Positions 44,398-64,000 of a DNA stretch of 64,000 nt are shown piece by piece. This DNA comes from Alphaproteobacteria bacterium (GTDB lineage Bacteria; Pseudomonadota; Alphaproteobacteria; Sphingomonadales; Kordiimonadaceae), in assembly GCA_006226495.1 (NCBI GenBank), contig SBGU01000021.1:1-64000 (forward strand), written 5' to 3'. Numbering within the stretch: position 1 is the stretch's first letter; each line of letters starts with the position of its first letter. Both the position numbers and the translations under genes were made by a program. The notes below the pieces were generated by a model that had not been told where the DNA came from, searched no databases, and saw only the letters and a list, made by a program, of their open reading frames with translations.

Positions 44398-44542
44398 ACC
44401 CAGTGGATTACCTAATATTATATAAGTCAAACACTTTTTTGTATTATAGTGAAAATATGTCGTTCAATATATCAAAAATACATCTACCCTGTGGATATGC
44501 ATCAAAAAACTGTCATCTTGACAAGCAAGTCCGAATGGGGGA
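44398..44542 (+). promoter_or_regulatory. Leader of CRISPR array 1
   Basis: An AT-rich 145-bp leader (from 44398 to the first repeat) with two copies of ACCCWGTGGA: ACCCAGTGGA at 44398-44407 and ACCCTGTGGA at 44486-44495, 88 bp apart. GGGGGAGTCTGA joins leader and repeat. The leader of array 2 has the same two boxes 87 bp apart and a similar junction. The array is transcribed rightwards from here. Each box also resembles a DnaA box on the other strand (TATCCACAGG vs TTATCCACA), which I note without weight. Confidence 0.75.
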
Positions 44543-45175: not shown

Positions 45176-45268
45176 CCATGATGGACCGCACGCCTTAGGG
45201 CGCGCGGGACTGCTGTGTGAGCTCGGGCGATGTTCAGGTTTTTGACTTGTGTGCGGCCCGGTGCCCGA

Positions 45269-46218: not shown

Positions 46219-48726
46219 CTACCGCTTTTTCGGCGGCGGTGTGCTTACGGCTTTCATCGGCTCGATCTGGCCATTCTTGATGGGTTCCAGGGCAGAATAT
46301 TGCCGGGCTGCTGCCTCGCCGGCAGGTGCTACCTTTGGGTGCTTCGACCCGTGAAGTGAATTGGCAAATTGTTCAGCGCGCTTTTCGTTGGCCACGGCCC
46401 ATTTGAAGCCTTCGCCTTCCAGCTCGGCCGCACGGCGGCGGCCAGACGCAAGCTGGCCGGCTTCCAGCGGATAGTGAACGAAGGTTTCCTGCGCATTGCC
46501 GCCCGGTGCCGGGAATGTGTTTTCGCCAATGGCCAGCAGCGCGGAAATCTGGTTGTGCAAGGGTTTGCCCTTTGCGCCATGCTTTGCATGCCATTCGGCA
46601 GAACATGCCATGAAGGGCGCCGAACCGCTGCCTTGCAAGCTTTGCTCGCAGAGCTGCCGTTCGTGCCGGTAGGCGGGTTGCTCGAACCAAAGCTGGTCCT
46701 CTCTCCGGCCTGGCAAGCAGCGGCCGTATCGCTGGGTGTCAAACAGGGATTGCCCGCCATAGCGGCCGGCACGGTCGATCAGGAACAGGCCCTGGGGCAC
46801 AAGCTGAACGCTGCCAAGGCCAAGCGGCTTGCCCATGCCCAGCTTGTGCCGGAACCTTTCGGAAGGCTGCAACGCAAAACAAAGCAAACTAAGCTCGTTG
46901 ACGTTCAGATTGTCGAAATCGATGTGGAACCAGAAACGGGTTCCTGACTTTATCGGCCGCACGCGGTTTTTCTGGCTCGCGGTACGGTCGACATCCGGTC
47001 CATCGACAAGCGGTACCTTGGTTTTCCAGGGCTGTGCGTCAGCCTGAGCTTCCTGATGCAGATAGAATTTCCGGCCCTGAAGGTCATGCCGGTCGACTGA
47101 CAGGTCCTTCTTCCGGATTGGCCGGTATGATGGTCCTTTATGCCGGAAATACAGGGCCGGCGCCGGTGGCTTGGGTGTGGCCAGAATTTTCAGGGGGATT
47201 TCGTCGTCCAGCACGGTGCTCGCGTCCGTGCCGGGCGGCAAAACACCGTGCGAGAACCGCAGTTTGCCGGAAAAGGCAACACGGTGGCTATTTTTCGCAC
47301 GCCTGCCGCCTTTTTTGTCGCCTTCCACAAAGCCGAACATGCGCTCCACGATGGAAATGCGCGTCCTGTCGGCGCTGTAGGGCAAGATTTCCGGGTCGGT
47401 CTCTTGCCGCGCAAAGCGTCCAAGGGTGGCGCATTTCGGTGTGCCATCCTCGGTGTATCTGCTGCAATCGCGCCAAACGGCTGAAAACGAGATTTCGGAC
47501 ACAATTGGCTTGCCTTCGGCATCGGCAAAGTTGGCGATATCGAAATAGACGATTTGGCCTTCCGTTAGCGCAGGCACAACTGCACCCGTTGCCGGGTCTT
47601 CGCGCCACTGTTCGGCCATACCCGGCATGTCCGGCAGATAGGGAAGGCGCTCCAACGCTGGCAACCATTCGCCCGATTTCTTGCCACCATCGCGGCTGCT
47701 GCCGACACGGTTGTTGTTGTTGCTTTGTGCCCGCTCAAGCGCCAGTGCATCAAATGTCGCAATGACCTCTGGCCGCAGCAACAACCTGTCGTTCCGGCAC
47801 TCCGCCGGATCTGGAATAAACAGCTCGTGCTTTTTGGTGTTGGGAATGTCGCGGCCAGCAACCTCGAAAACCCGCACGTGACCGGCGGTCCGGCTTGGCC
47901 CCGCAGACGAAAAGACATCTGTCAGGTTGAACCCGATAAAGGTATTTGCTGGTTTCTTTGCCATCTTGCGATCCGGCCCCAGCCCCCGTATCACCGACGC
48001 AATATCCGTCTTGGTAAAGACCGCAGGGTTGATGGCGGCATAGTGGCGAGCCCCCAGGCTTTCAGCTGCCATTTTATGGTTCGGCAGGCCGCCCTGTTCC
48101 CCATCGAGGCTATAGTCCTTCAGCGACCCGCCACGATAGTTGCCCAGATAGCCTTTGACGCCCTTGAACCTGTGAAACGCCGCTTCCCACAGCTTGGAGC
48201 GCTCTGGTTTGCTGTTGATACAGTAGGAACTATGCGTGCCATCGATTTGCACCACCGGCACGACCAGGGGCCGCACATAGAATGTGTCGCCGTCCCGCTC
48301 GATGATTCCCATGGCCGACAGCGCATCGCGGGCCATTTTGCGGAAGGTCACAGGGAAGTCTTCACCAAAAACACGCGCTGCCGACCCGCTGGCAGCCTCG
48401 GCGACACTGCTGATCATACCCTTGAGGCTGGTTGCCGGCAGAGCCGGCTGGCCGTTCAGCTCAAACGGCGTAACCCTTCCATATGCGCTTTCATCATTAG
48501 CGCCTTTGGTGCCGGAGGTTATATTGGCGCCAACAACCAAAGGCGTATCGACCTCGAGCACACAGACAATACGACCGGAATACAGGTCCTTGTCGTACCG
48601 GTCATGACCATCGTGGCCTGGCCCGTTTTTCCGGAAATCCGCAGCGTCCGACCCCAGATGTTCACCAGCACCATGACTGCTTAGCGGCACAAAATGATAG
48701 TTATTGTAGAATCTATCGTTCGACAC
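46219..48726 (-). CDS. RAMP protein 3, TIGR03986-like (Cas7 group)
   Basis: 835 residues. The N-terminal Cas7-like motif is VLEVDTPLVVGANITSGTKG with ALPATSLKGMISSVAEAA. A long middle section has unrecognised insertions. The C-terminal half closes with the RAMP Gly-rich region RHKLGMGKPLGLGSVQLV. It follows the second RAMP with a gap of nine bases. It probably forms one or more backbone subunits of the crRNP. Confidence 0.8.
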   Translation of the reverse strand: MSNDRFYNNYHFVPLSSHGAGEHLGSDAADFRKNGPGHDGHDRYDKDLYSGRIVCVLEVDTPLVVGANITSGTKGANDESAYGRVTPFELNGQPALPATSLKGMISSVAEAASGSAARVFGEDFPVTFRKMARDALSAMGIIERDGDTFYVRPLVVPVVQIDGTHSSYCINSKPERSKLWEAAFHRFKGVKGYLGNYRGGSLKDYSLDGEQGGLPNHKMAAESLGARHYAAINPAVFTKTDIASVIRGLGPDRKMAKKPANTFIGFNLTDVFSSAGPSRTAGHVRVFEVAGRDIPNTKKHELFIPDPAECRNDRLLLRPEVIATFDALALERAQSNNNNRVGSSRDGGKKSGEWLPALERLPYLPDMPGMAEQWREDPATGAVVPALTEGQIVYFDIANFADAEGKPIVSEISFSAVWRDCSRYTEDGTPKCATLGRFARQETDPEILPYSADRTRISIVERMFGFVEGDKKGGRRAKNSHRVAFSGKLRFSHGVLPPGTDASTVLDDEIPLKILATPKPPAPALYFRHKGPSYRPIRKKDLSVDRHDLQGRKFYLHQEAQADAQPWKTKVPLVDGPDVDRTASQKNRVRPIKSGTRFWFHIDFDNLNVNELSLLCFALQPSERFRHKLGMGKPLGLGSVQLVPQGLFLIDRAGRYGGQSLFDTQRYGRCLPGRREDQLWFEQPAYRHERQLCEQSLQGSGSAPFMACSAEWHAKHGAKGKPLHNQISALLAIGENTFPAPGGNAQETFVHYPLEAGQLASGRRRAAELEGEGFKWAVANEKRAEQFANSLHGSKHPKVAPAGEAAARQYSALEPIKNGQIEPMKAVSTPPPKKR

Positions 48727-48735: not shown

Positions 48736-50247
48736 CTATTCCGCCGCAGCGCGTTGCAACTGGCGCCGCAATTCTGCAACAGCGCCGTCAAGAAACGCCT
48801 TGACCTCAGCCAGCTCCAGGACGGAAGCTAGCGGCCCTTGCATCTGCTCCGGCAGCCAGGCACTTTGCGAACCGGCCACACCCAGTTCCATTACACTTGC
48901 TGCAAGGTCCACCGTGGGGACGCCAAAACCCTTGCGGCTGCCAAAGCCAAGTGGCATGTCACCTTCACCAAAGTCCCGTGCCACAAGCGCCAAAAGCCCG
49001 ATGCAAGCCTGCGCATGGTCCCGGCCATTTTCGGTATCACCAAAATTTGCCACCAGCCTGTCGCGTCGCAGCCGCATACCGCCCTTGAGACGCAAACTGT
49101 CCGGCCGCCGCACGTTGAACTTGGCCCCGCTCCGCGCGCCGCCCGTAATGCGGTCAATCGCGACAAATTCCTGAATACGGTCTTCGAAGGCACCATCATC
49201 AACCTTGAAATGGTGGAACTCCAGTGCGCCGCGCTGCCCGACGTCCCCAAACAGCGGCGCAAGGAACATGGCTTCCGCGTCTTCTGCACCCAGCCCCAAG
49301 GTATTCAGAATTCGGCTTGCCTGCGCACGCCAGGCACCTTTCATGCTGCTGCCAGGCAGACGCACGACAGACCGCAGATCGCTGTGGCTGATCGAAAACT
49401 CGAAGGGTGCCAGGTCCGCCTGACCGGCCGTGTCTGTTGTGGCAACCAGGAAGGGCGCATCAAAATCGAGCACAAGATCAATCCTGATGTCGTCTTCATC
49501 TGTTGGTGCAATCAGACCCGGTATGGCCCCCGCAAGCGCGGCCATATCCACCGGATATTTGCGGATATAGTCCCGCCATGACGGAATGTCCGGTTCCGAA
49601 AGCCAGGCCGCAATTGCGGTTTCATCCATGGCAAAAAGCTGCAAATCCTGCAGCTCTATCAGGCCGGCCCCCGTTGAAGCGGATGCACCAACCTGGCGAG
49701 GCTCAGCAGCGAAAGCAAGGAGCGCCGCGGCCAGAAACTCAATCTCGGCGCCTGTCAGGCTATCGGCGGTGATTTCGAGTGAAAAGCGCGTGCCGGCTGC
49801 CGCGAGCCTGCTGGCGCGCAACATGGCATCGCCAGCGGTACGTGTGGCATTGTCGATTGCAGTTTGGCAGAAGGTTTCGAAGCGGGGATCTTTGTCGCTG
49901 GACATAAGGTTTACGAATTCGAGCTTGCCGCCCCTTGCGACCTGAACCTGACGGGTTTGGCCATTGGTCTCCTTTTCTGCGGCGCGCGGGCCATGACCAA
50001 AAAGCATATCCGCCACCGGGCCGCCAGAGGTGCCCAGAAAAGCCCTGAAAACACCCCTGAAACTGGATGCCGGTATCATCGGGCGGCCCAAAATATCAAG
50101 GTCGATAGCCAATGGTTTGCCGCTGCCTGCGTCATCATTCGGCGTTTCCGCGGCCTCCTGGGCGCCGGTGCGGACAGCCAGCGGAGTCAGTGCAAATACA
50201 TCAGCTTTGACAAGAACGCGGTTTATGGGAGTTCCGTCTGCCATCAT
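48736..50247 (-). CDS. RAMP protein 2, double Csm3/Cas7-like
   Basis: 503 residues. Two fused Cas7 domains: domain 1 with PLAIDLDILGRPMIPASSFRGVFRAF and a Gly-rich VGASASTGAGLIEL; domain 2 with ISHSDLRSVVRLPGSSMKGAWRAQ, RITGGARSGAKFNV and MPLGFGSRKGFGVP. The Asp in LDILGRP is where Csm3 has its target-RNA-cleaving Asp, so slicing is possible. The start overlaps the stop of the upstream RAMP (ATGA). Double Cas7 proteins shorten the usual set of separate backbone genes. Confidence 0.82.
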   Translation of the reverse strand: MMADGTPINRVLVKADVFALTPLAVRTGAQEAAETPNDDAGSGKPLAIDLDILGRPMIPASSFRGVFRAFLGTSGGPVADMLFGHGPRAAEKETNGQTRQVQVARGGKLEFVNLMSSDKDPRFETFCQTAIDNATRTAGDAMLRASRLAAAGTRFSLEITADSLTGAEIEFLAAALLAFAAEPRQVGASASTGAGLIELQDLQLFAMDETAIAAWLSEPDIPSWRDYIRKYPVDMAALAGAIPGLIAPTDEDDIRIDLVLDFDAPFLVATTDTAGQADLAPFEFSISHSDLRSVVRLPGSSMKGAWRAQASRILNTLGLGAEDAEAMFLAPLFGDVGQRGALEFHHFKVDDGAFEDRIQEFVAIDRITGGARSGAKFNVRRPDSLRLKGGMRLRRDRLVANFGDTENGRDHAQACIGLLALVARDFGEGDMPLGFGSRKGFGVPTVDLAASVMELGVAGSQSAWLPEQMQGPLASVLELAEVKAFLDGAVAELRRQLQRAAAE

Positions 50248-51980
50248 GCGGCTCCCATCTTCACCAGAGTGAGCGACGTGGGTGCCGGCTGCATTTGCAG
50301 ATGTTCCTGCTGATCGACAATGATCTCGCCAAACCCGTTTTGCCGGATATAGGGGCATTCCCGCCAAAGGTCGGGGCCATCCGCCGACAGGAGATAGGTT
50401 TCCCTTATGGCCCGAGTAAGCGGCAAGCCATGGGCCTGAAGATCATTCAGCTTCTGCGCGGCGGTTTCCGGGTCCTTGATCCGCACCACAAAAACACTGC
50501 CCGTTTCAGTCAAGAGCCACGGTCTGTAGGCACGGCCCGCCGAAAAGCGGTTGGCCATGAAATCCGCACCGGCCATGCGTTCGCTTGTAAAACAGCGAAC
50601 GAGGTCGACCGCCCCATCAAATACATCGGAAATTGCCGGACCATAGGCATTTCTTTGGTCCAGAATAAGCGCGGGACTTGCGAGGGTCAGGACATGAAGG
50701 TCACCTTCCCGCAGATTCTGCACGGTTCTGGCGTCGGCGCCCCAAGAAATGCACAGACTGGCGTGCGCGCCACTGCGCCCGAGGGGGGCGATGCCGTGTG
50801 CCAACAGGGTCGAAAGCTCGTGGATAATGGCTTTGCGATCCGCGACCGGGACGTCCGCGAGACCAAGTTCACCATGCCAGTCGTGTTTGTCGACATTGCT
50901 GAGTTCGTACGCGAACAATTGTTCCGGGCTTGCACTCAAGGTTTCGCTGCTGACTGCGGTGCGGACACGCAACTGACTGGACGGCCAATCCCCGAACAGG
51001 TCTTCAGCAGCCTCATAGGCCTTTGATTTCCAGTCCATGCCGAATGCGGGCACCTCGCCGCCGATCAGGCACGGGCCGTCCACAAGGGCAATGTCGGCAA
51101 GGCCCGCGGATGTGCTGACCAGAGAGCGCGGACAGGGACGCCGCCGGGCTGCATTCCCTTTGGCGGACGGATAAAAATGGGTAACCCGCAAAGCCGACAG
51201 GTGCCTGGCCAATGTCGAGCAAGCATCAGGTCCCGCCGCAATTTGCATCATGTGGGCCAGAGCGCCCTTGAAGGCGCTTCCGGGAACGATATGGCTGCTG
51301 CTGAACAGGTTTTTCCCGGCGCGCCGGTCGGCAATGCAAAAGGGGTCGGAGAAAACCAGCTTCAGGGCGAGCCGCGCAGGCGCGCCCTCTACCAGTGACG
51401 TGGATGTTGCGGCCGAATTGTCATGCAAAGTCGCTTTGTCGACCCGGCCAAACCCGATACCGCGCATACCCCCCATCTGCGTCAACCAGTTAAGCGCTCG
51501 TTCCAACAGCCTTGCGGCTTTCATCGCGTCCGCTTCCGGCATCAGAAGGCGCAGGGCGCCGGTAAAAAGGACGGTTTCGCCCACCCCGTAGGGTTGCTCC
51601 ATAACCTGCAACGCGCCCGGTTCTACCGTACCGGTTTCCGGGCTGATCTTGATCCGCGTGCGGCGACCGGACACACCCTTGGTTTCGGCAACAAGGTCAC
51701 TTACATAGACAGGCCGGCGACCGTCCTGCCCTTTGAAAACATCGCCCTCGTTGGTACCAAGCCAGGCATCAAGCGCCGCGGTACGTTCGCCCGCTTCAAC
51801 CAGCGGCCCCAGTATACGCAGCGCATGTCGCAGTTTGCCGAGCACATGGCTGCCGGCAATATAGGGCGTCCCGTCAGGCAGGCGCGCAAAGACCGTGTCG
51901 ATACCAAAGTCACCCACGTCACTGGAACGGGTCAGGATCGGGCCTTGCAGCCACAGCTTCAGCCTATATTCCTGTATCAT
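50244..51980 (-). CDS. RAMP protein 1, double Csx10/Cas5-Cas7-like
   Basis: 578 residues from the ATG at 51978-51980, which overlaps the Cas10 stop (ATGA). Domain 1 has GTPYIAGSHVLGKLRHALRIL and MGGMRGIGFGRVDKATL. Domain 2 has DRRAGKNLFSSSHIVPGSAFKGALAHMM, VRTAVSSETLSASPEQLFAYE and HGIAPLGRSGAHASLCI. The latter resembles Csx10/Csm4, the Cas5-like cap holding the crRNA 5' handle. I cannot settle whether one half is Cas5 and the other Cas7. Confidence 0.76.
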   Translation of the reverse strand: MIQEYRLKLWLQGPILTRSSDVGDFGIDTVFARLPDGTPYIAGSHVLGKLRHALRILGPLVEAGERTAALDAWLGTNEGDVFKGQDGRRPVYVSDLVAETKGVSGRRTRIKISPETGTVEPGALQVMEQPYGVGETVLFTGALRLLMPEADAMKAARLLERALNWLTQMGGMRGIGFGRVDKATLHDNSAATSTSLVEGAPARLALKLVFSDPFCIADRRAGKNLFSSSHIVPGSAFKGALAHMMQIAAGPDACSTLARHLSALRVTHFYPSAKGNAARRRPCPRSLVSTSAGLADIALVDGPCLIGGEVPAFGMDWKSKAYEAAEDLFGDWPSSQLRVRTAVSSETLSASPEQLFAYELSNVDKHDWHGELGLADVPVADRKAIIHELSTLLAHGIAPLGRSGAHASLCISWGADARTVQNLREGDLHVLTLASPALILDQRNAYGPAISDVFDGAVDLVRCFTSERMAGADFMANRFSAGRAYRPWLLTETGSVFVVRIKDPETAAQKLNDLQAHGLPLTRAIRETYLLSADGPDLWRECPYIRQNGFGEIIVDQQEHLQMQPAPTSLTLVKMGAA

Positions 51981-53761
51981 GCCGCGACCCCTGTGCCCCC
52001 TGCGGTGGCCATGCCGCCAGCCGCAATCAACAGATAGTCCCAATAGTCTTCCAGAAGCAGCCAAAGCGCGTGCGCGCCCATGGCATCCATCGCCGGGGCC
52101 AACAGGCCCCGCACATTGGGATATAGTGCAAAAAGCCGGTCACGGGCGGCGAGGTAGCTGCCACCCTCGGTTCCGCCCGCATGAAGTGCGATCACCACCT
52201 GCCGCAACTGCCGGCGCCCCGCGCCATCGTCCAGGACAGAAAGCTGTTTGGCCGTATCCACCAGAAGGGCAATATTGGCTGGGTCAACCAACAGTTCGTC
52301 CGGCGCAACACCGACCGGGCTGCGGCCCGCCAGATAGGCTTCAACGCTGTTGCCCACCTGGTCGAAACTTTCGAGCACGGATATACAGGCCAGATCCTGA
52401 TCCCGGCTTTTTCGCTTGCAGGCCTCAGCCAGCCCGTCGCCCAATCGGATGATGTTGGCAATCGGGGCGTCATGGTGGAAAAACACCAGCCCGGCAGCAT
52501 GAAACATGCGGCGGTCGCCCACACACCATTCATCGCTATCTGCGCCTGTGTGGCGGCCACGGGTCATGTCGAAAAACAGTTTCAAGGCATCGAAGCCCAA
52601 CCTCGCTGGCAGGACAAATCGGAATTCGTCGCCCCCCCAAAGCAGCGTTTCCAGGCGAAGCACGGTTTCGATGGCGACCTGGCCTTCGCGGCCTGACCCG
52701 CCGTGGCGCCAGTTCAGCGCCTGGCGTTCTTCCCGTTCCGCATCGGACGGCGCACCGCTGGCATCGCGGTGCACCAGTTCAAGCAGTGCCTTCAGGAACC
52801 GGCGCCGCGTGGTACGCAATGTCGCGTCCAGTTCGGTTTGGCGGGCCAACTGGTTTTGCCCGTGCGCGGTGGATTCGCCCCTGATATAGGCCGTCTGCAG
52901 GGCGCCGAAGCCGTTGCCGTCGGCATAAAAAAGCGCCAGCTTGTCACGCAGGTTTTCCTTGAGGTCCAGGTTGCCACCTTCGCTGATCGACGCGAAATGG
53001 AGGGCCATGGGCAGCCGGTCCCGTGCATCGCGCAAGGCGTGGGCCAGGCCGTCCGACGGTGCATCGGCGTCTTGCAAAAGGGCAAGCTGATCGCTGTAGA
53101 AAGCCTGCTTTTCGGCAACACCAAAACGCCGCCGCAGGGACACAGAGCGGCTGATCCAGTTCAACTGTCCCTTGACGTTTTCCGCCATGTCCTGGCGCGG
53201 CAGGATACCATTGAGGCTGCAAACCGCACTATCGGGCAAGTCCACCGGATTGCCGCCGCGGCGAACGCCGCTTGCTCCGGTGGTGCCCTGCGCGTGCGGA
53301 ACCGCCGACCATTCGTCGCGGTGCCGCACATTGGGGCCTGCCATCTGGTTCCAGCGCATGCGCGTTTGCGCGGCCGCCAGGGCATCAAGATAGCCGTCGT
53401 CGCCTTCAAGCGGCACGCAGGCAACCACAAAACGCATGAATTGCGCCGCCTCAAAAAGGCTGGCATCAGCCGCATCCGGCATGGCCGCACCGTCAAGGAC
53501 CGCCCGGCACCGTTCCTCGATTGCGGCGGGTGCCAGATCGCTGGTGACTTTCCAGACCCCGCGCGACGCTCCGAGACTGACGGCTTCCGCCTGGTCGGCA
53601 GGCTGCAGCACATGGCGCGACAGCGCACCATTTTCGCCGCCGAACGCCAGGGGCACCTTCAAAAGCAACAGCGAACTGCCCCGAATGGTTGAAAGATCAT
53701 TGGTATCGAGCACCGTGGCATAGATATCCACTGCCTCGACCGCCAGCAGGTAATTGCCCAC
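51977..53761 (-). CDS. cas10: Compact Cas10 with GGDEF motif, HD domain missing
   Basis: 594 residues. The N-terminus begins directly with a palm strand (YLLAVEAVDIYATVLDTNDLSTIRGSS), with no HD nuclease domain before it. LALFYADGNGFGALQ (279-286) is the first palm acid site. LLWGGDEFRFVLPA carries an intact GGDEF (376-380), so nucleotidyl cyclase- or conjugase-type activity is likely. The C-terminal helical part has no obvious zinc cysteines. Cas10 senses target RNA and makes the second messenger for effectors. It is first in the interference operon, 265 bp from array 2. Confidence 0.88.
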   Translation of the reverse strand: MGNYLLAVEAVDIYATVLDTNDLSTIRGSSLLLLKVPLAFGGENGALSRHVLQPADQAEAVSLGASRGVWKVTSDLAPAAIEERCRAVLDGAAMPDAADASLFEAAQFMRFVVACVPLEGDDGYLDALAAAQTRMRWNQMAGPNVRHRDEWSAVPHAQGTTGASGVRRGGNPVDLPDSAVCSLNGILPRQDMAENVKGQLNWISRSVSLRRRFGVAEKQAFYSDQLALLQDADAPSDGLAHALRDARDRLPMALHFASISEGGNLDLKENLRDKLALFYADGNGFGALQTAYIRGESTAHGQNQLARQTELDATLRTTRRRFLKALLELVHRDASGAPSDAEREERQALNWRHGGSGREGQVAIETVLRLETLLWGGDEFRFVLPARLGFDALKLFFDMTRGRHTGADSDEWCVGDRRMFHAAGLVFFHHDAPIANIIRLGDGLAEACKRKSRDQDLACISVLESFDQVGNSVEAYLAGRSPVGVAPDELLVDPANIALLVDTAKQLSVLDDGAGRRQLRQVVIALHAGGTEGGSYLAARDRLFALYPNVRGLLAPAMDAMGAHALWLLLEDYWDYLLIAAGGMATAGGTGVAA

Positions 53762-54026: not shown

Positions 54027-54672
54027 GTTTCAATCGGTATCCACTGCCGGAATGGCCTCAGACGGAGATCACCATGAACATCGAAATTCAAGCGTTTCAA
54101 TCGGCATCCACTGCCGGAATGGCCTCAGTCGTGGAGGACAAAATGCAAAAAATTGTTAAGTTTCAATCGGCATCCACTGCCGGAATGGCCTCAGACTTAC
54201 TCTTTTTTTCCGCCGCATTGCGGCAGTTTCAATCGGCATCCACTGCCGGAATGGCCTCAGACGAGAATGCTATGGCTTACAGAGCTATTGATAGTTTCAA
54301 TCGGCATCCACTGCCGGAATGGCCTCAGACCAACACCTGACCCCTGAAATGGAAAGGAGTTCCGTTTCAATCGGCATCCACTGCCGGAATGGCCTCAGAC
54401 GATATGACAAATGACCACACTGTCCATTCTGTTTCAATCGGCATCCACTGCCGGAATGGCCTCAGACCCTGTTCGAATTCGACCATCCGGATGTGAAGGT
54501 TTCAATCGGCATCCACTGCCGGAATGGCCTCAGACTTAAAAGTGGCGTGCTACCCATTTTCCAGCCGGTTTCAATCGGCATCCACTGCCGGAATGGCCTC
54601 AGACGGAACCAGCATTGTTGACCGCCTTTTCGGTGGTTTCAATCGGCATCCACTGCCGGAATGGCCTCAGAC
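54027..54672 (-). CRISPR. CRISPR array 2 (10 repeats)
   Basis: 37-bp repeats on the plus strand begin GTTTCAATCGGCATCC and end GGCCTCAGAC, at 54027, 54094, 54160, 54226, 54294, 54364, 54431, 54499, 54568 and 54636. Nine spacers are 29-33 bp. On the minus strand they start GTCTGAGGCCATTCC and end ATTGAAAC, so the array is read leftwards. The changed repeat (GGTATCC, at 54027) is at the left, the distal end. The repeat differs from array 1 only in a three-base block (GGC vs CCG) after GTCTGA. Arrays 1 and 2 therefore face each other across the interference operon. Confidence 0.97.
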
Positions 54673-54816
54673 TCCCCCCTTTGCAGCATTCTGTCAAGCT
54701 TTACTGATTTCGACATGTTTCCACAGGGTTCATACCATTTGGCCATATTTTCAAAACCATTTCGCACGTAATTAATTTTCCTGTTATATTTCATGTAATT
54801 ATTGTTTCCACAGGGT
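54673..54816 (-). promoter_or_regulatory. Leader of CRISPR array 2
   Basis: AT-rich, between the last array 2 repeat and the stop of the DHH-CorA gene. TCCACAGGGT occurs at 54720-54729 and 54807-54816, 87 bp apart, the second touching the gene's stop codon. On the minus strand they read ACCCTGTGGA, as in the array 1 leader. The leader-repeat junction GGGGGGAGTCTGAGG also parallels array 1. Confidence 0.75.
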
Positions 54817-57794
54817 CATGGAAACAGGAATGGCCAAAGCAGGCCGCTGACCAAGGTCACCGCCACCAACACCAAAACCAGCATCGAGGCCCAGGAAAAG
54901 GCCTGTATACGGCCGGGGCGCGGCGCGGCAAAAGCAGCCAACCGGCGCAACCAGGACCGGTTGCGCGCCATCCGGGCCACCATGCCCGACAGGGTACCGG
55001 GTCGCCGGTGCGGCAGCAGCACCAGCCACAACAGCCCGGTCAGGAACACGGTCAGGACTGTGGCGAATGCGGTGAAGCGGATCCCGTTGTCGAGGCCCAG
55101 TTCCGCCAGGTGGTATCCCAGCGCACCACCCTTGCCATAAAGCCCCAGCGCGCCGCCAAACAGCGTCAGCGGAATACCGACAAAAGCCAGAGCGCGAATG
55201 CGGTTCTCTGCCCGGCGTTCGCTTTCCCGGTCCCAATATTCCTGTGTGCGCTCGATTTCGTCGCGGATCATCTCATATTCGTTGCGGGCCTGGGTTGGCT
55301 TGCGGATCAGGTCGAACAGTTCGATGCCCTGCACCTGGCTGGACACCTGGTTGAACCACAGCATGTTCACGAACTTCAGCAATTCGGGCAGCAGGGCGTG
55401 GTAACGCTGGGGCAACGGTTCGCCCTTGTCCGGCTGCCAGGGTTTGAGGATGTCCGAAATTTTGCAGGAATAGACCTGCAGCACAGCGGTATAAAGCTGG
55501 GCCAACAGCGCCATGCGCAGGTAAACACCATTCATTTGCCTGAGATGAATGACATCATAGGCATAGGACTTCGTCCTTCGGCCGCCCGCGAAGCCCAGGT
55601 AAGCAAAAGCATGGTCACTGGCAACAAAATAGCTGCCGAACTGTTCGTGCCGCCGGTACCGGTTCTGCTCCAGCAGTGCGCGCGCGAAATCTTCGTCATA
55701 ATTGAAACCGCCGCCAAATCCGTCAACTTCGCGCAGGCGGTCCAGAACCGCATCCAGCCGGGCTGTGGCGCCTGGCAGGGTGGGTCTTTCGCCTTCCAGC
55801 ACAACGGATGTGGCAACCCGCGCCCGCGCGTCGCCAAGATATTGAACGCGGTTGGCATAGCCACCCGCCTCTGCCTCACCGACAATTGAACCGAGCGCCA
55901 GTTCCACCAGCTTTCGCAGCACATGGCGGGGTCTTTCGTCGCTGGTTGCGGACTCGCATCCAAAGAGGAAACCGGCCAATTCTTTGTCGCCCTGGTGAAG
56001 CTCCAGACGGTAATGGCCTTTGTCCTGCACCTCGTCTTCGCTGTATTCAAATTCGGAATACAGGTACCGGGCCTTGGCATTATAGTCGATCATCGAGGCA
56101 AGCGACTGGCTCGCACCGCCGGACAGCAGGCACATGCACAGTGACCCTGCACCTGCAGACACCTCAGGGGCCTTGTACCCGACCCCCCATTCCAGGCATA
56201 TCGTATCATTGTAGAAAAGATGCAGGCGCACATGTTCGACTTTTTGGACCTGCCGCACATGGCCCTTGGGCCAATCCAGCACATAGGCAAGATCAGCAAG
56301 GTTCCCGCTGAGGGTGATTTCGAGGCTGACAAGGCTGGGGCTTTGCGGATCACTGCCGCCCTCCCGCCAGCTTGCCCCCAGTTGCTGGCGCAAATGGCGC
56401 ATGAAATAGCTGGCGTCGCCAATGTCCTGAACCTTAACCCCTTGGGTATTCTCCGTTATGGCCGCGTGCGCAGCCTTTCGCAGCCGATCAAGGCTGAAAT
56501 CTGCATCCGGCACAAGCCATAGTGGCTGCATGAAATGGGTACGCCAGGCCACCACCGGTCGGGCGCCAAGCAGGAAGTTGTTCAGAAGGAAGTCACAGAA
56601 ATTCAGGATCGCTGCCGGCGCATTCGAAATGCCATGGACATCTTCCAGCCCAAAATAGAAACCGGTTTCGCCGACAAGATAGGCCTGAAGCTGGTCCAAC
56701 CCATGCTCCGCCCGTACATCGGGCTCCAGCACTTGTTCCAGCACAGGCCTGTCCGCCGCAGGGCCGCAGAATTCGAGCCGGCAAATTGACGCCAGCATCG
56801 TTTCAAGCGACGGCGACACGTCTGCGCCAGCCGTTTCAGGATAATAGAGGGCCAGAATGCGATGGTCTTGCAGGTAAGCCTCGCCCTGACTGAAATAATA
56901 TTCATACACCGCATCGACCAGCAGGCGGCGCTCCCGCAGCGGGGCAACAAGCAGTAGAAGGTCTTCTGCCTTATTGGGTAGGGGCCCGGAACGCAAATAC
57001 CTGCCAACGATCCGCGTCGTGCTGGGGTCTGTATACGCGGCGTCCGGGCTGCCGGCATTTTCAATTGCCTGCCCGACCTCCTGCGCAAGCTGCTCCAGGC
57101 GCGACTGCATGGCTTGCAGTTTGGCGTCAGAAACAGTCTGGCTGCCGGCAGCAAACGCGTCGCCGTGCAATGCGGCATAGCCCTCTTCCGCAATCACAAG
57201 ATCAGCCGCTCGAATATGCCTGATTTCAGCAAGCGTTTTCTCGAACTGCGGCCATTGCCCCGGATCATCTGGCCAGCCACACCGGCCATTGCTTGCAGCG
57301 GAATCCTTGAATTTCAGGGGGGCGCGCCCGCGACGTTTCCATTGATGTTCGAAACAACAACGTGCAAGCGCGGGCATGCCGCCCATCTCGCGCGCTGATA
57401 CGCGTTCGGCCCAAAGCCAATCTTCGTCAAGTTGATCCTGCGGTCCGGCAGCAGGACAAAAATGCCGGTAGACCTGCTGAAATGCCGATAAACCATGCCC
57501 GCGCGACACGTGCCCGCCCATGGGCGACGCATAGTCCTTATGATCAATCAGGGTAACCGTCTTGCCGGCTTCTACCAGCCTGCGTTCGATGTCCGGATTG
57601 TTGATCTCGACCATCGACACACGGTCAAAATCTTTCAGGTAACGCGCGATATCGCTGTAGTGGATAGTATCGCCCCATGACCGGTCAACGATACAAACCC
57701 TTTCAGCCCTTTTTTTATTGCGCACAAGAAATGCGGCAATTTCGGCCGTTTCCAAGTCATTGCGCTGAACCAGATACAGCGTCCCGTCCGCCAT
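54816..57794 (-). CDS. DHH-like domain fused to CorA-like membrane protein
   Basis: About 992 residues from the ATG at 57792-57794 (an upstream ATG at 57809 adds five). The N-terminal ~150 residues share the stand-alone DHH protein's features: LVQRNDLETAEIAAFL (cf. GGHDLEMQTIADLV) and VTLIDHKDYASPMGGHVSRGHG (DHK in place of DHH). The large middle region is unrecognised. The C-terminus is a long charged coiled-coil (EYEMIRDEIERTQEYWDRESERRAENRIRA) followed by three membrane helices: ALAFVGIPLTLFGGALGLY, FTAFATVLTVFLTGLLWLVLLP and SWASMLVLVLVAVTLVSGLLWPFLF, like CorA but without the GMN motif. I infer a messenger-gated channel with a built-in messenger hydrolase. Its stop touches the array 2 leader. 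Confidence 0.7.
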   Translation of the reverse strand: MADGTLYLVQRNDLETAEIAAFLVRNKKRAERVCIVDRSWGDTIHYSDIARYLKDFDRVSMVEINNPDIERRLVEAGKTVTLIDHKDYASPMGGHVSRGHGLSAFQQVYRHFCPAAGPQDQLDEDWLWAERVSAREMGGMPALARCCFEHQWKRRGRAPLKFKDSAASNGRCGWPDDPGQWPQFEKTLAEIRHIRAADLVIAEEGYAALHGDAFAAGSQTVSDAKLQAMQSRLEQLAQEVGQAIENAGSPDAAYTDPSTTRIVGRYLRSGPLPNKAEDLLLLVAPLRERRLLVDAVYEYYFSQGEAYLQDHRILALYYPETAGADVSPSLETMLASICRLEFCGPAADRPVLEQVLEPDVRAEHGLDQLQAYLVGETGFYFGLEDVHGISNAPAAILNFCDFLLNNFLLGARPVVAWRTHFMQPLWLVPDADFSLDRLRKAAHAAITENTQGVKVQDIGDASYFMRHLRQQLGASWREGGSDPQSPSLVSLEITLSGNLADLAYVLDWPKGHVRQVQKVEHVRLHLFYNDTICLEWGVGYKAPEVSAGAGSLCMCLLSGGASQSLASMIDYNAKARYLYSEFEYSEDEVQDKGHYRLELHQGDKELAGFLFGCESATSDERPRHVLRKLVELALGSIVGEAEAGGYANRVQYLGDARARVATSVVLEGERPTLPGATARLDAVLDRLREVDGFGGGFNYDEDFARALLEQNRYRRHEQFGSYFVASDHAFAYLGFAGGRRTKSYAYDVIHLRQMNGVYLRMALLAQLYTAVLQVYSCKISDILKPWQPDKGEPLPQRYHALLPELLKFVNMLWFNQVSSQVQGIELFDLIRKPTQARNEYEMIRDEIERTQEYWDRESERRAENRIRALAFVGIPLTLFGGALGLYGKGGALGYHLAELGLDNGIRFTAFATVLTVFLTGLLWLVLLPHRRPGTLSGMVARMARNRSWLRRLAAFAAPRPGRIQAFSWASMLVLVLVAVTLVSGLLWPFLFP

Positions 57795-58103
57795 GTGCCG
57801 CCCCCACATCCTCGGGGTGCATGCTTTTTACCCCGTCCTGACCACTAAAAGTTGATTAAATCTGCGCGGCGCGGCTATGGCAACCCATATGTGGCGACGT
57901 TTCATAGATTTAAGTTTGGCAGGGCTGCTGGAAATACGGCCAAATAAGTATCGATATACTATGCGGATATGGAGTCGGCCTGCCTATATCCAACTGCCCG
58001 ATCTTAAGGGGGTGCCGATATTCCAAAAACTGACACCCATCTTTCAACTTTCATCAGCGCGGTTCGCATTTGAGTGCCAAGATTGGCGAGTATTGGCAGT
58101 AGG
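57795..58103. other. Spacer between hipA and DHH-CorA gene, possible hipB remnant
   Basis: 309 bp. On the minus strand after the hipA stop is an open stretch (58004-58100) reading LANLGTQMRTALMK, which resembles the start of HipB-type XRE antitoxins (LGxQLRxAR), then loses similarity and stops. It may be the ruin of hipB; the match is short. An inverted repeat AGTAT/ATACT around CGAT (57947-57962) lies in the rest, where the DHH-CorA promoter should be. A rightward frame here has no recognisable domain. Confidence 0.35.
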
Positions 58104-59294
58104 TCAGTCGAAGATTGTCTCCCATTTTTCAAGCACGCTGGCCCGGAAAGCGTGTGTCCTGCCTGGCCCAAGCGGTATATCGCCATCGAGGCGCGCGAAC
58201 ACGGCATCCCGGGCCTTGCCTACATCCTTGAAAGCCTGCTCGATCGCCCGTTCAGTCAGCCGCAGGCGCCGACCGATCTCTGTGAGCAAGGCCCGGTCGT
58301 AGACGTCCCACTGGATCGCCTGCCCATCCAACTGCAGCCCGAACCGGGTGCTGTAGCCCTGGGCGCCATAGAGATAGCCGTTCAGCACGTCATAGATGGG
58401 TGACAGCCGCAGGCCGTCACTGGTCTCCAAAAGGCTCCAGTTCTTCAGGTGACAGTCGGTGTTGCCGATCAGGCAAAAGGCCACCAGCCGCTTGAACAGC
58501 CTGTAGCCGTCAAGGACAGGGGCAGCCGAACGCTCAAGCGCCGCGGCCAGGGCCTCATAGCCTACTGTATATTTGGCGCTGCGGTCCCGGCCGGGCGGCA
58601 CCGACAGAACCTGGGCAAAGTCCTCGCAGCGCAATTTGCCGCGCCGGTCCGGCCCGACCCGGTCAAACCGGTTGACCATCAGTGCCGGCCGATTGATCCC
58701 GGCAAGGATAGTGCGCTCTGCCGTCACCACCTGGTCGTCCGGCAACAGCAACCGAACCAGCTCCAGGCTGAAGGCCTCGTTACCAACCAGGTCGATCAGG
58801 TCCTCGCGATTGAACTTGGCGATATAGGGCGCAGCCTCAGTGCCCTGCGCCGGCGCATAGCGGTCGCCGTGACAAGCACACAAAAGTTTCTCCTGAACGC
58901 CAGGGATCGTACGTCGGGCTGCTGCAATTGCTCTCGTTTCAGCGTCGGCGGCCTCACCAAGATCGAAACCTGACGCGAATGCTTCAGGATCCTCGATACC
59001 GATAGCGCCGATACAGTCTCTGCCGAACGCAAGCAGCAGACCAAAGTCATCGTCTTCACTTATATCCGCGATCGCCCGCTGACGGCTTCGAAGCCACCCT
59101 TCCGGCGCCATATGTGCAAACACTGGATGCAGGCCATTTGACCATTCATGTTCATCCAAGGCCCGCGGCAATGCGCAGGCAATCTCGGGCGCATCCTCAT
59201 CATAGACAAACACAGTACCACCATCTGCAGTCTCTGAGAGAATGCCGGCCCTTTTGTCTTTGAAGGTCACAATGCCATATCGGAGCTTTGCCAT
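58104..59294 (-). CDS. hipA: HipA-family Ser/Thr kinase toxin
   Basis: 396 residues. HipA N-domain (KLRYGIVTFKDKRAGILSET, HPVFAHMAPEGWL), the ATP-loop TIPGVQEKLLCACH, and the HipA-C catalytic NxDxHxKN as GNTDCHLKNWSLL with LSPIYDVLNGY (metal-binding Asp). All catalytic residues are present. HipA phosphorylates aminoacyl-tRNA synthetases and is normally held by HipB. No hipB lies upstream: hipA starts 51 bp after the tniQ stop. A degraded match is downstream. It is probably a stabilisation or defence cargo of the transposon. Confidence 0.85.
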   Translation of the reverse strand: MAKLRYGIVTFKDKRAGILSETADGGTVFVYDEDAPEIACALPRALDEHEWSNGLHPVFAHMAPEGWLRSRQRAIADISEDDDFGLLLAFGRDCIGAIGIEDPEAFASGFDLGEAADAETRAIAAARRTIPGVQEKLLCACHGDRYAPAQGTEAAPYIAKFNREDLIDLVGNEAFSLELVRLLLPDDQVVTAERTILAGINRPALMVNRFDRVGPDRRGKLRCEDFAQVLSVPPGRDRSAKYTVGYEALAAALERSAAPVLDGYRLFKRLVAFCLIGNTDCHLKNWSLLETSDGLRLSPIYDVLNGYLYGAQGYSTRFGLQLDGQAIQWDVYDRALLTEIGRRLRLTERAIEQAFKDVGKARDAVFARLDGDIPLGPGRTHAFRASVLEKWETIFD

Positions 59295-59345: not shown

Positions 59346-61250
59346 TCATTCTGCCACTGCACCGTCAACGCCAGCTCGCTCAAAAAAATATTGCCTGCCG
59401 CCATCAACATTCGGCCCGGTTACTGGCTGAAGTCCTTCGTTCCGCAGGTTCTCAACCAAGGCCTTTGGGGATTTTCCACGAGCTTTCGCACACTCTGCTG
59501 CAGACACATAGCAAGTGCGGAACCGCTCAACTTCGTCCCTAGCGATCGTGCGCATGAAGCGCACCCCAATTTTGGTTTCCCTAGTCTGCAACAGGCCACG
59601 TTTCACCAGGCCATACAGCACTTCCTGCTTCAAGCAGAGTTCGGCCGCAGCCTCCGGCAAGCTCAAAACGTCTTCGGGCGCCATAGCATTGCGCTCAAGG
59701 ATTTTTTCCATGTCAGCGAATGCAAAGCAACACTGCCGAACGCCGACCTCGCGCGTGTCACATGCCTTTACGTTTATCTGGTCACGCACCACCATTTCCA
59801 GCAGATCCGCTATGCCCAGCCCAACTGTGGTCAACATGCGCACGGCAATTGGGAAACCGACCAGATCTTCTTCGCCACCGACATACTGGGGCGCGTCGCC
59901 AACAACTCGCTTTATAAAAGCTTCTACTTCCATACGATCGAGCAACATCGTACGCGACCGATTGATGGGCACGTCTGGCAGCGGGTTCAACAGGCCTCGC
60001 TCAACAATCGCCCGAAACGGTACTTCTGAAAGACCCAACAGAATACCTGCACGATAGGGGGTAATGGTGTTCGCTTCTTCATCCAACCGACGAATTACGC
60101 TGCGGCGTTCGACCAGCGACAGCTTACGGGCGCCTGTAGCCAGGACGTGGCCCTTTAGATGCCCTTCCTCGATCATCCTGTCGATCATGGTCGGCGCACA
60201 GCGCAGCACTTTCGCGGCCTCCTGACGATCCATGTATTTTCGGGATTCGACGGGCGCGAGCTTCAACCTGCTATTCCTTCGTGACACCAACCCGCCGTCC
60301 CACCTGGTATTGGCGTAGTCCTGCAGCGCCGCCCAAAGGAAATCGAACGCTCTCCCGCGGAAGTCTTTTCCGAGTGCCTCGTAGAAACTTCCCAGATCAT
60401 GTGCCAGGCCCGTTGTGCCGGCACCGGCCGGTGCCCGGGTCCGGATCAATTCCAGAAGCGCAAAGAAATTGGTAGGCCATTCATCCAGGACACGTGCCGC
60501 TTGCGCTATCATGTCATATGCGGCCCGAACCGACAGGTGTGCACAGGCCCTGGCTCCATATCCACTGGCATCCTGCACGCTATAAAGCCCCAGAAAAATG
60601 ATCAGCCTGCAAAGATCGTTTGGCGTCAGATCATCCAGAACGGAAAAGCCGGCAGGGCGGTGACCATTGCCCTGTCCAAGTTGACAGAGAACATAGGTCG
60701 TGAGGGCCACCGCCTTCGCGTCGGCCTCCGCGGCGACTACAGTCGACAGATCAAGGCCACAGTACCCACAGGACGCGACCCTGGCTGACGACCATGCAAG
60801 GTCACGCGCGCACCCCGGGCAGCGGTCCAGGAGACGGTTACCATGTGTGGGGCAACAGGCGACAACAGAAAGGTCCCAGATCGCGCGCCTGAATGGTTTC
60901 TGGCCAAGGCACGCCGGACATACTTTTGGACGCTTGAGCTTGACTGCCGCATCCGGCAGTTCCACCCCCAGGAATGATCGTGTCTTGTGCCGCCCACGTC
61001 CAACCAACGGCCAGTAACATGTGTCGGCAAGGGTATCAACTTCAATACCCAAGACTGCAGCCAATGCCGCTGGATCACTTTGCCGCATAGGCAATGACGC
61101 TGGCGAAACCGACATATCGAAAAGCCAGCCAGGTCGCGCATAGCCATTTTCTTCTGCGACACGGACAAGATAGCCCATCAGGCTCTCGCCTTCTTCGGGC
61201 CGCGGGCGCCTCAACAGTTTCTTGTTCTCAAAATTGGAACCGACGATCAT
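59346..61250 (-). CDS. tniQ: TniQ/TnsD-like target-selection protein, long
   Basis: 634 residues. The TniQ N-domain (LLRRPRPEEGESLMGYLVRVAEENGY) is followed by zinc-binding pairs (C111/C114, C132-C133/H136, C144/C147, C161/C164) and a C-terminal region with several helix-turn-helix-like segments, e.g. YMDRQEAAKVLRCAPTMIDRMIEEGHLKGH. This long form resembles TnsD, which binds a fixed chromosomal attachment site, not the short TniQ of CRISPR-guided transposons. The start overlaps tnsC by one base. Confidence 0.85.
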   Translation of the reverse strand: MIVGSNFENKKLLRRPRPEEGESLMGYLVRVAEENGYARPGWLFDMSVSPASLPMRQSDPAALAAVLGIEVDTLADTCYWPLVGRGRHKTRSFLGVELPDAAVKLKRPKVCPACLGQKPFRRAIWDLSVVACCPTHGNRLLDRCPGCARDLAWSSARVASCGYCGLDLSTVVAAEADAKAVALTTYVLCQLGQGNGHRPAGFSVLDDLTPNDLCRLIIFLGLYSVQDASGYGARACAHLSVRAAYDMIAQAARVLDEWPTNFFALLELIRTRAPAGAGTTGLAHDLGSFYEALGKDFRGRAFDFLWAALQDYANTRWDGGLVSRRNSRLKLAPVESRKYMDRQEAAKVLRCAPTMIDRMIEEGHLKGHVLATGARKLSLVERRSVIRRLDEEANTITPYRAGILLGLSEVPFRAIVERGLLNPLPDVPINRSRTMLLDRMEVEAFIKRVVGDAPQYVGGEEDLVGFPIAVRMLTTVGLGIADLLEMVVRDQINVKACDTREVGVRQCCFAFADMEKILERNAMAPEDVLSLPEAAAELCLKQEVLYGLVKRGLLQTRETKIGVRFMRTIARDEVERFRTCYVSAAECAKARGKSPKALVENLRNEGLQPVTGPNVDGGRQYFFERAGVDGAVAE

Positions 61251-62287
61251 CAGAACACATCCCGTAGCGTAAGGGCGCTATCTGCACCAAGAGCGGGCTT
61301 GTTCTGCTTGCGCGGCTTGTCACCGATCAGTGTAGGCGCCTGGTCGGGGACCAGTGCTGGCCCATTGGCGAAGGACCAGTCCACGGCAAAAGGATTAACG
61401 GCCGGTGTCCCTCTGTCGAGACTGCCCTCTGGCCTTAGAATTCTTTCACGGTAGGCGCGCTCCAAGAGGCCAAGGGTGATGCTTTTTTCGCATTCTTCGA
61501 AAGCCAAGAATGCAGCACCGCGCACAATCTTCATAACCTTTGAAACATACCCTTGGGAGGCCGAGAAAAACCTGCGTCCCATGTCCAGATTCCCGAACGC
61601 CGGCTTTTCCTCAAACGGCAATCGGTCAGCGACAAAGCTCAGAAATTTTCGGAACTCTTCCATGTCATGGCCCGCCCCAAACGGCTCAAGGACATACTGG
61701 CTCGAAAAGCGTCGCATAAGCTGTTCGTTGGCTTCCAGAACGTTGCGTGAATAGGGCAGCCCGGTCAGCACCACGGGTACCTTTGTTTCGCTGATCAGGT
61801 TTTTGAGCCAATCAGACACGGACCGCAGGACGCGAAGATTGTCGCGGTCGATGAAGTGCTGAAACTCATCCAGGATGAGGATTTCGACCTCGCATTCCCG
61901 GATCAGCTTGTAGAGCCGCTGTGTCTTGTTATCCAACGACCCCCGAAGGGCGGACGGATCGCCAAGACTAATCAATAAGGCCGTCGCCATTGCCTTCATG
62001 GTCGCCGGCACCGGGATGGCCGCAGCCAGGACAGGAATGGTGGTCCCGGAGGTGGTTTCCGTGCGCGGATAGCGCCGCAGATAGAATTCTTTTATAGTGG
62101 TTTTGCCAACGCCCGATTCCCCAAGAATAAGAAGGCATTCGGGCTCGTTTGCGCCTTTCGACAGAGCCCGGCAATAGTCGACCTGCCGAATTGCCTTCAT
62201 CATGCGGGGGTGCGTTATCACCATCGCATTTATGGCACCAAGGCTCTCGAGTGCGGTGTCCGACAATTTTCTGCTGCTATTCTTCAT
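61250..62287 (-). CDS. tnsC: TnsC/TniB-like AAA+ ATPase
   Basis: 345 residues. Walker A is ILGESGVGKTT (56-64); Walker B is EVEILILDEFQHF (D140, E141). KSITLGLLERAYRERIL and a basic C-terminal tail follow, typical of the TniB/TnsC ATPases that link target-site proteins to the transposase. It overlaps tnsB by eleven bases at its start and tniQ by one base at its end, giving a tight tnsB-tnsC-tniQ operon. Confidence 0.9.
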   Translation of the reverse strand: MKNSSRKLSDTALESLGAINAMVITHPRMMKAIRQVDYCRALSKGANEPECLLILGESGVGKTTIKEFYLRRYPRTETTSGTTIPVLAAAIPVPATMKAMATALLISLGDPSALRGSLDNKTQRLYKLIRECEVEILILDEFQHFIDRDNLRVLRSVSDWLKNLISETKVPVVLTGLPYSRNVLEANEQLMRRFSSQYVLEPFGAGHDMEEFRKFLSFVADRLPFEEKPAFGNLDMGRRFFSASQGYVSKVMKIVRGAAFLAFEECEKSITLGLLERAYRERILRPEGSLDRGTPAVNPFAVDWSFANGPALVPDQAPTLIGDKPRKQNKPALGADSALTLRDVF

Positions 62288-64000
62288 AGCCCCAATCCTC
62301 GCTATCCAGGGTGTCCGGCCGATCTTCCGATGGCATCATTGCGGCTTGGTCAAACTCGCTACTCCCGCTGCTGCCAGGGTCGGGTTTTTGACTACTTGGC
62401 GCCGTCTTGGGGGCTGCAATGTAACGGTTGCTCCCCTGGCCATTGAAGCGGGCAATCTTCTTGGTTCTGGCAATCTTCTGTTTGCGCGCGCGCACCTCAT
62501 TGAAGATCGACCTGATCTCCTCCCGGGCTTCCATCAGCGACAGGTCAAAATCGTTCTCATGTTTGCGCCGTGCCCGCCATTTGCAGATGACCTGATGCTG
62601 CCATAGGTTCAATCCTCGGGCATATTCCGGGTCTCTCGCGGGCACCCTGAAGAACCCACTGCCATCCGGGTGCGCCACAAAAACCGACCCCAGATCAGAT
62701 GGGTCGATCTTGACCTGAACCTTCGGGTTTTTCGTTCTCTTGTAGACGACCAGGATGCGGTTGAGGTCTTCGCTCACATAACGAAGGCCTTTGAAGACAA
62801 TCCCGTCTTTGCCAATGGTACGTTCCTGGACATGGCTCAGGATGGCGATTAGATCATCAATGGATGCCGGCAGGCGCACCGCCGGGAACCGTTCGCGGCC
62901 ATCATTCCATACATCGAGAGGCACACCACAAAGACCGTTATGATAGGTGCGGGCGTAAACATCCACGATCCACTTGCAAAAGCCCTCGGTGAATTGCCCC
63001 AAATTGACAATCGCGTCTTTTTGGGGATCGTAGCCGACAATTTCGCGGGCAATCGGCAAGGTTTTGCCTTTGACTCCCCTTAACAGGCGCGTATTGATCG
63101 TACCGAAAATTCGCTCCACCTTGCCCTTGTACCAGGCCTTCGTCCGAGGTGCATAGACCACCTCAATGCCTAATTGTTCGCAGGCCATTTCCAGGTCGGT
63201 AGAATGGAACTCACGACCGTTGTCCACGACAAGTACTTCGCACGCGCCGAAGCAGGGCCATACCCCATTGATTGATGGAAAGCCGTCGATGACCTCGCCT
63301 TTGGGCATGATCATCATGCGCAGGCAATGCATTACCGTTTGCCACCCGGGCGGCTCAAAACCCAGATAAAAGCCTACAATCATGCGCGAATAGCAGTCGA
63401 TGGCGACTGTGAGTGTGGGCCGGCCAAGCGGCAGCCCGGTTTCCTCATCCACCAGGATCAGGTCTAGGACGGTATGATCGATCTCGACGCGTTCAAGCGG
63501 TCGCGTGGCAACCGGACTTTTGCCGTAGGCACGAAATCGTCTGTCGGCAATATCCTTGCCCTCGCGGCACCGGACAACCGTGTAGGGATCAAGCTTGTTG
63601 AGCTTGCGGTAAATGGTCCGCTTGGCGACAAAGTCCATATGCCGGGATTTGGGCAAATGGGAGTTGTGCTTGGCAATCCCCAAATTCACCGCGTCCATGA
63701 CTTCCGCGGGGGCCGCACGCCGTGCGTTCAGGTACCGGGTTTCGATCACCTGGTTGATGATTTGCTCCTGGTCAGGCGACAGTCTTGCCGAGCGGTTGCC
63801 GCGCTTCTCGTACGAGGGTCGCAGTGCGCGCAAATCCCTGCGGCCATCCAGGAAGTCGCGGTACCATCGTGCGACAGTCGTCCAGTGCGGAGCTTTTGGG
63901 TCTCCGATGCGCTTTGCCGTCTCGGCAATGATTGGTTCGAGCCTGTCCCGGGTTTTGGGAATCGGCATATACGCTTCAATTGCTTTTATATAGTCGCGGC
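62277..64000 (-). CDS. tnsB: TnsB/TniA-type DDE transposase, 5' end beyond window
   Basis: At least 574 residues are visible. The reading frame stays open past the first internal ATG (63968) to the window edge (RDYIKAIEAYMPIP), so the true start lies beyond 64000. The catalytic triad is ERVEIDHTVLDL (D164 from that ATG), EVLVVDNGREF (D249) and KGKVERIFGT (E285), a DD(35)E retroviral-integrase type. An N-terminal HTH (APHWTTVARWYRDFL) and a basic C-terminus (KWRARRKHENDF) follow the Mu/TnsB plan. No tnsA is visible; it would be to the right. Confidence 0.93.
   Translation of the reverse strand, partial: RDYIKAIEAYMPIPKTRDRLEPIIAETAKRIGDPKAPHWTTVARWYRDFLDGRRDLRALRPSYEKRGNRSARLSPDQEQIINQVIETRYLNARRAAPAEVMDAVNLGIAKHNSHLPKSRHMDFVAKRTIYRKLNKLDPYTVVRCREGKDIADRRFRAYGKSPVATRPLERVEIDHTVLDLILVDEETGLPLGRPTLTVAIDCYSRMIVGFYLGFEPPGWQTVMHCLRMMIMPKGEVIDGFPSINGVWPCFGACEVLVVDNGREFHSTDLEMACEQLGIEVVYAPRTKAWYKGKVERIFGTINTRLLRGVKGKTLPIAREIVGYDPQKDAIVNLGQFTEGFCKWIVDVYARTYHNGLCGVPLDVWNDGRERFPAVRLPASIDDLIAILSHVQERTIGKDGIVFKGLRYVSEDLNRILVVYKRTKNPKVQVKIDPSDLGSVFVAHPDGSGFFRVPARDPEYARGLNLWQHQVICKWRARRKHENDFDLSLMEAREEIRSIFNEVRARKQKIARTKKIARFNGQGSNRYIAAPKTAPSSQKPDPGSSGSSEFDQAAMMPSEDRPDTLDSEDWGYEE

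Follow-up and report, generated by a model that had tools for sequence, protein, structure and literature searches.

A CorA-Type Membrane Protein Joined to an Apparently Decayed NrN-Like Domain in a Type III-D CRISPR Locus with a Separate Intact NrN

Gene Composition of the Locus

The window (the whole stretch of 64,000 nucleotides that was analysed) contains a CRISPR locus in which the fusion gene considered here is followed by a CRISPR array and cas10; then come three RAMP genes and a DHH gene of 267 aa, and after these another array, a reverse transcriptase (RT)-cas1 gene and cas6, with all the genes on the minus strand. The fusion gene (54816–57809) encodes a protein of 997 aa, a putative type III-D membrane effector composed of a pseudo-NrN part and a CorA part, as judged from its frame, PADLOC profiles, BLASTP and HMM shuffle tests. 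The array detected between the fusion gene and cas10 occupies 54027–54682, and Cas10 itself (594 aa, 51977–53761) has a GGDE palm motif. Profile matches identify the RAMP proteins, that is, one of the Csx10/Cas5-Cas7 type (50244–52064), one with two Cas7-like stretches (48736–50367) and a TIGR03986 protein, the type III-D Cas7 (46219–48726). They are followed by the DHH gene (45269–46072), the array detected between it and RT-cas1 (44531–45189), the RT-Cas1 fusion, recognised by a profile match (42369–44396), and Cas6 (41202–42080).

The locus is assigned to type III-D because TIGR03986 is matched above its cut-off (NCBIfam, 250 bits against 161), PADLOC gives III-D-type profiles to the locus, and one solved complex (PDB 9wxh) is matched both by Cas10 and by two RAMP proteins. 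For the Csx10-type Cas5, TIGR02674 scores 26.6 bits, under its cut-off of 177, and the PADLOC profile for Csm4 of CAS-III-D matches at E 9e-54. The palm motif GGDE, in place of GGDD, is also found in the Cas10 of both Tistrella genomes described below and in that of PDB 9wxh. Mapping of the SAM-binding acidic residues of Bacteroides fragilis Cas10 (D70, E151) onto the Cas10 of the window was abandoned, since the palm regions of III-B and III-D align unreliably.

The Stand-Alone NrN

The 267-aa protein encoded at 45269–46072 (minus strand) is an NrN phosphodiesterase by sequence, in which all NrN motifs are intact (GGHDLEM, ELADD, IDHH and EANDIGH). It matches the solved NrN (PDB 9lq9) at E 3.4e-23 and the PADLOC family C3a116 at 1.2e-58; since PADLOC already holds this family, genes related to it have been catalogued before. 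As all catalytic motifs are kept, the proposal in the preliminary description that a stand-alone DHH protein could take over hydrolysis is supported.

The Fusion Gene and Its CorA Half

The fusion is encoded by a single intact open frame of 997 codons, whose GC content by codon position (0.67/0.43/0.67) is of the coding type. The interval 54816–57794 given previously lies in this same frame, but 57794 corresponds to the second Met (residue 6), and the frame reaches 57809. The DHH-like N-terminal region (residues 1–275, 56985–57809) carries the motifs NDLE, EINNPD, DHK and ARE and an EIxxIRxxD helix; the DHHA1-like region (residues 280–430, 56520–56972), in which GGG is degraded to VGE, is homologous to residues 313–464 of the Tistrella protein (E about 1e-11); and the CRISPR-type CorA sensor and membrane domain, matched by PADLOC CorA, covers residues 437–997 (54819–56501). 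The intact frame, the CorA match (E 1.2e-46) and an NrN-HMM score equalled by one in 4000 shuffles thus confirm the earlier claim that DHH-like and CorA-like domains lie in one protein: an NrN-like (DHH/DHHA1) N-terminal region and a CRISPR-type CorA membrane domain are joined in one gene.

The CorA identity of the C-terminal half is secure by sequence, with PADLOC CorA PDLC01174 matching residues 462–923 at the E value given above and PDLC01043 matching the same half at E 1.4e-27. Hydrophobic segments at the C-terminus (residues 871–892, 909–935 and 966–997, within 54819–55199) are predicted to be three transmembrane segments, and together with the PADLOC match they bear out the previous reading of the C-terminal helices as CorA-related. 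The third segment is present in all five fusions (that of the window, two from Tistrella, and those of Arcobacter and Haliscomenobacter), whereas the solo CorA-like proteins tested (8/8) have only the two usual segments. The GMN signature is missing from the CorA parts of the window and Tistrella fusions, which read GLYG and GLKE, respectively. At the proposed SAM-AMP site (R152/R153 and D219/D220 in B. fragilis), one Arg and one Asp seem to be kept in the window fusion (KARY, GDAR), as judged by eye in a region where the alignment is uncertain. As for the features of a CRISPR-associated CorA effector, a CorA-like C-terminal domain is present, and cas10 and RAMP genes adjoin the fusion.

In more than 15 Pseudomonadota genomes, solo proteins of 550–600 aa (L045–L060, L075 and L076) match the CRISPR CorA profiles along most of the protein, with no CRISPR arrays, tested cas genes or clear conserved partner nearby. 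These proteins, which came from a phylum-wide search with PADLOC CorA, were dropped as CRISPR homologues because they do not adjoin tested cas genes or CRISPR arrays.

Descent of the N-Terminal Half from NrN

The N-terminal part of the fusion has no DHH match in Pfam, PADLOC or NCBIfam, and its best single-sequence match in BLASTP to the stand-alone NrN of the window has an E value of 0.055. An NrN HMM was built from four sequences, namely the NrN of the window, the N-termini of the two fusions from Arcobacter and Haliscomenobacter, and PDB 9lq9 in the form in which alignments show it, and significance was taken from 4000 composition-preserving shuffles. The score of fusion residues 1–440 was equalled by one of these shuffles and that of the Tistrella homologue by 16 of 4000; the CorA half of the fusion, used as a control, was not significant. 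With an HMM of the DHHA1 end and the CorA start, the Tistrella homologue stood above all 4000 shuffles. Some of the sub-tests fell short of significance: the DHHA1 end of the window fusion alone gave 0.03, and the first 265 residues of Tistrella gave 0.06. A profile–profile comparison reached only E 0.07.

The window and Tistrella fusions match each other across residues 279–890 (E 6e-39), the DHHA1-like stretch included. In the joint alignment motif I, the EIxxIRxxD helix, the GGG motif and the start of CorA follow one another without rearrangement, and over about 430 residues both the motif order and the junction to CorA are colinear with those of the fusions from Arcobacter and Haliscomenobacter.

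As for structure, the AlphaFold model of residues 1–167, with only two sequences in the alignment, is weak (pLDDT 59, pTM 0.54); its alternating order of strands and helices suits a DHH domain, and its matches include RecJ (Z up to 5.4) and NrN (Z 4.6–4.8), with unrelated or generic Rossmann-like folds at equal Z. The model of residues 1–440 has a pLDDT of 42.5, too low for any fold family to be named. Each of the sequence tests is modest by itself; taken together, the shuffle tests, the colinear motifs and the Tistrella match make it likely that the fused N-terminal domain descends from NrN.

Catalytic State of the Fused Domain

In the alignment, the invariant residues of NrN include DLE, ELxxD, IDHH and ND. 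In the fusion, the Asp and Glu of motif I are kept (NDLE, residues 17–20) and the EIxxIRxxD helix is retained; DHH has become DHK at residues 89–91 (57537–57545), motif II (ELxxD) reads EINNPD with loss of its Asp, ND of motif IV has become RE (AND to ARE), and GGG of DHHA1 reads VGE. The discoverers of B. fragilis NrN used a form of it with a mutated DHH as their inactive variant (PMC10600005). Among the solved structures, PDB 9lqa is an NrN variant with the Glu of motif I altered (DLE to DLA), and PDB 9lqc is entitled "NrN D119A in complex with SAH-AMP", where D119 lies in motif IV. The fused NrN of the window thus appears to be a dead enzyme, that is, a pseudo-enzyme, in which weak activity is possible since the Asp and Glu of motif I remain.

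The fused domain of Tistrella keeps the Asp of motif I, ND and GGGE and has lost the Glu of motif I and DHH. Consequently DHK is not conserved among homologues, a point on which the preliminary description had asked for an alignment. The two domains have lost different residues, as would be expected if the activity of the enzyme had ceased to be required.

Homologous Loci in Tistrella

Three intact loci of the pseudo-NrN–CorA type were found, in the window and in two Tistrella genomes, so that two of them belong to one genus. No relatives of the fusion or of NrN were found in the genome contigs scanned with each of the two, nor were any found in viral contigs scanned with alignments, and phage records yielded no NrN. 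The III-D locus of Tistrella mobilis pTM1 (WP_014747449.1) resembles that of the window in its set of cas genes, the pseudo-NrN–CorA architecture, a GGDE Cas10 and an RT-Cas1-like cas1; it differs in the catalytic residues that have been lost, in having no NrN by HMM, and in a gene with DEDD motifs beside cas10. NrN is absent from both Tistrella genomes by two HMMs.

The gene in question, present in both genomes, has roughly 195 aa and lies divergently beside cas10 (28523–29122 in L032). DAETNG near its start and HDPLADA near its end correspond to the ExoI DxE(T/S) and ExoIII HxxxxD motifs in the DEDD order, while the Asp of ExoII appears as Glu. Both motifs in this order arose in 4 of 300,000 shuffles and in no other ORF among 541. 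We call the gene DEDD-like rather than a member of the family because neither the profiles of Pfam, PADLOC and NCBIfam nor the PDB sequences gave a match to DEDD. DEDD nucleases are a published alternative to NrN beside CorA (PMC10600005), and the gene may be a SAM-AMP phosphodiesterase of III-D systems. In short, Tistrella parallels the window with a differently decayed fused domain and an adjacent DEDD-like gene. In a third Tistrella genome this locus has decayed to a relic, of which no more than fragments of RT-Cas1 and of the N-terminus of the fusion are left (L077, 9320–10236).

Relation to Known Systems

The view that the two parts are separate genes in known SAM-AMP systems does not hold, since a fused nrn-corA has been reported in Aliarcobacter butzleri (PMC10600005), and two further NrN–CorA fusions with intact DHH were found here by homology, in Arcobacter (WNL35163.1) and Haliscomenobacter (WP_013769062.1), each in a III-B locus on a plasmid. 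These III-B fusions share with the window the domain order, the position of the junction and the third C-terminal membrane segment. They differ from it in that DHH, motif I and motif IV are intact and no second NrN was noted in the stretch seen, whereas the window fusion has a decayed NrN part, lies in a III-D locus and is accompanied by a separate NrN. What sets the window fusion apart from these nrn-corA fusions is the catalytic decay of the fused NrN, as read from sequence.

In B. fragilis, as in the window, a CorA-family membrane effector and an intact NrN of the SAM-AMP pathway lie in one type III locus; there, however, they are two separate intact proteins of a III-B system, the CorA bears no pseudo-NrN, and the catalytic pair of Cas10 is DD (D328/D329). 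The CorA effectors of Actinomyces also belong to III-D-type loci, but they are associated or fused with Csm6-2, cA6 is suspected as their messenger, and no SAM-AMP-degrading enzymes accompany them (PMC11229360). A self-limiting fusion of a ribonuclease and a ring nuclease likewise joins an effector to a messenger-degrading domain family; there the degrading domain is reported to be active (PMC7293037), whereas that of the window appears dead. According to a 2025 review of CRISPR classification, no SAM-AMP-cleaving enzyme is known in III-D and the messenger of its CorA is unclear (PMC12669027). The locus in the window thus looks like an exception, tying a III-D CorA to NrN, although NrN may have been noticed in III-D loci before.

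Proposed Mechanism and Alternatives

We consider it probable (roughly 0.6) that the fusion is a type III-D effector in which a SAM-AMP-gated CorA carries a pseudo-NrN domain, and hydrolysis is carried out in trans by the separate NrN. The fusion would have been derived from an NrN–CorA fusion of the III-B kind, the NrN part of which turned into a pseudo-enzyme. The messenger that Cas10 would make upon recognition of target RNA is a nucleotide, for which SAM-AMP or a close relative is the most likely candidate; it would open or remodel the CorA part in the membrane, while the intact NrN (45269–46072) would hydrolyse it in trans. The retained N-terminal domain would serve as a structural, docking or messenger-binding module and not as a self-limiting enzyme. 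The sequence itself supplies the fusion, the identity of CorA, the III-D context, a separate NrN with its motifs intact and a fused copy that has lost catalytic motifs; from these we infer SAM-AMP as the messenger, the disruption of the membrane and any role of the pseudo-domain. Several points count against this reading: the homology of the fused N-terminus to NrN is modest in statistical terms and recognised by no curated family, the structural models are of low confidence, the III-D CorA of Actinomyces is suspected to respond to cA6 (PMC11229360), the fused domain may have kept weak activity, the residues that bind SAM-AMP in B. fragilis CorA seem to be conserved only in part, and the known intact loci number just three, two of them from one genus. 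The messenger, moreover, is deduced from the NrN and CorA families only.

Three other readings were weighed. If the fused NrN were still an active phosphodiesterase, the effector would be self-limiting, as had been suggested, and the separate NrN would be a second, redundant enzyme. The retained Asp and Glu of motif I, the first two letters of DHH, the conservative change of Asp to Glu in motif IV, the fused NrN–CorA proteins with intact motifs and the self-limiting precedent in another pathway (PMC7293037) would suit this; yet the third DHH residue, the Asp of motifs II and IV and GGG are all lost together, the Tistrella homologue lacks other essential residues, and in both the window and the Tistrella loci there is a separate phosphodiesterase or a gene that may encode one. 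Such a reading is quite improbable, and self-limitation fits the III-B fusions with intact DHH better than the window copy. Hardly more probable is an N-terminal Rossmann-like sensor unrelated to NrN, with DHK a coincidence: the shuffle tests, motifs colinear over about 430 residues, a domain order and junction as in bona fide NrN–CorA fusions, and the presence of another, intact NrN in the locus speak against it, against which stand the missing family match, the best single-sequence E of 0.055 and the weak, mixed structural matches.

Another messenger, for example a cyclic oligoadenylate (cOA) or a different AMP conjugate, might instead gate the effector, with NrN degrading that messenger or its linear product. 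GGDE in place of GGDD in Cas10, the co-occurrence of the Actinomyces III-D CorA with the cA6-activated Csm6-2 (PMC11229360) and the ring nuclease Crn4, and the unclear ligand of III-D CorA (PMC12669027) would agree with it. Among the locus proteins tested against PADLOC, however, no cOA effector or ring-nuclease profile was matched, and B. fragilis NrN cleaved SAM-AMP and not pApA or cA2-6 (PMC10600005); we regard this alternative as rather unlikely.

Returning to the reading with a pseudo-NrN and hydrolysis in trans, a further step can be put forward tentatively: in a III-D branch with SAM-AMP (or a close relative) as its messenger, a messenger-degrading enzyme fused to its effector may have become a non-catalytic domain for messenger sensing or gating, and hydrolysis would be left to a separate NrN or DEDD-like enzyme. 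If true, it would be, as far as we know, the first pseudo-phosphodiesterase sensor in CRISPR signalling. The intact NrN and the CorA with an NrN relic here, and the DEDD-like gene in Tistrella, suggest which messenger the III-D CorA senses, and because these genes are present, the question can be tested with few proteins. The arrangement also bears on the need of CorA immunity for SAM-AMP degradation: if the messenger is degraded in trans and the fused domain is dead, the degrading enzyme need not be tethered to the channel.

Surroundings of the Locus

The two arrays (44531–45189 and 54027–54682) have nearly identical repeats, differing in about three bases, lie in opposite orientation and flank the effector genes. 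Directly beside the III-D locus, TniQ, TniB and a TniA-type (rve, Mu-transpos_C) transposase gene are found at 59346–63968, and a HipA-like gene (58104–59294) lies between the locus and the Tni genes.
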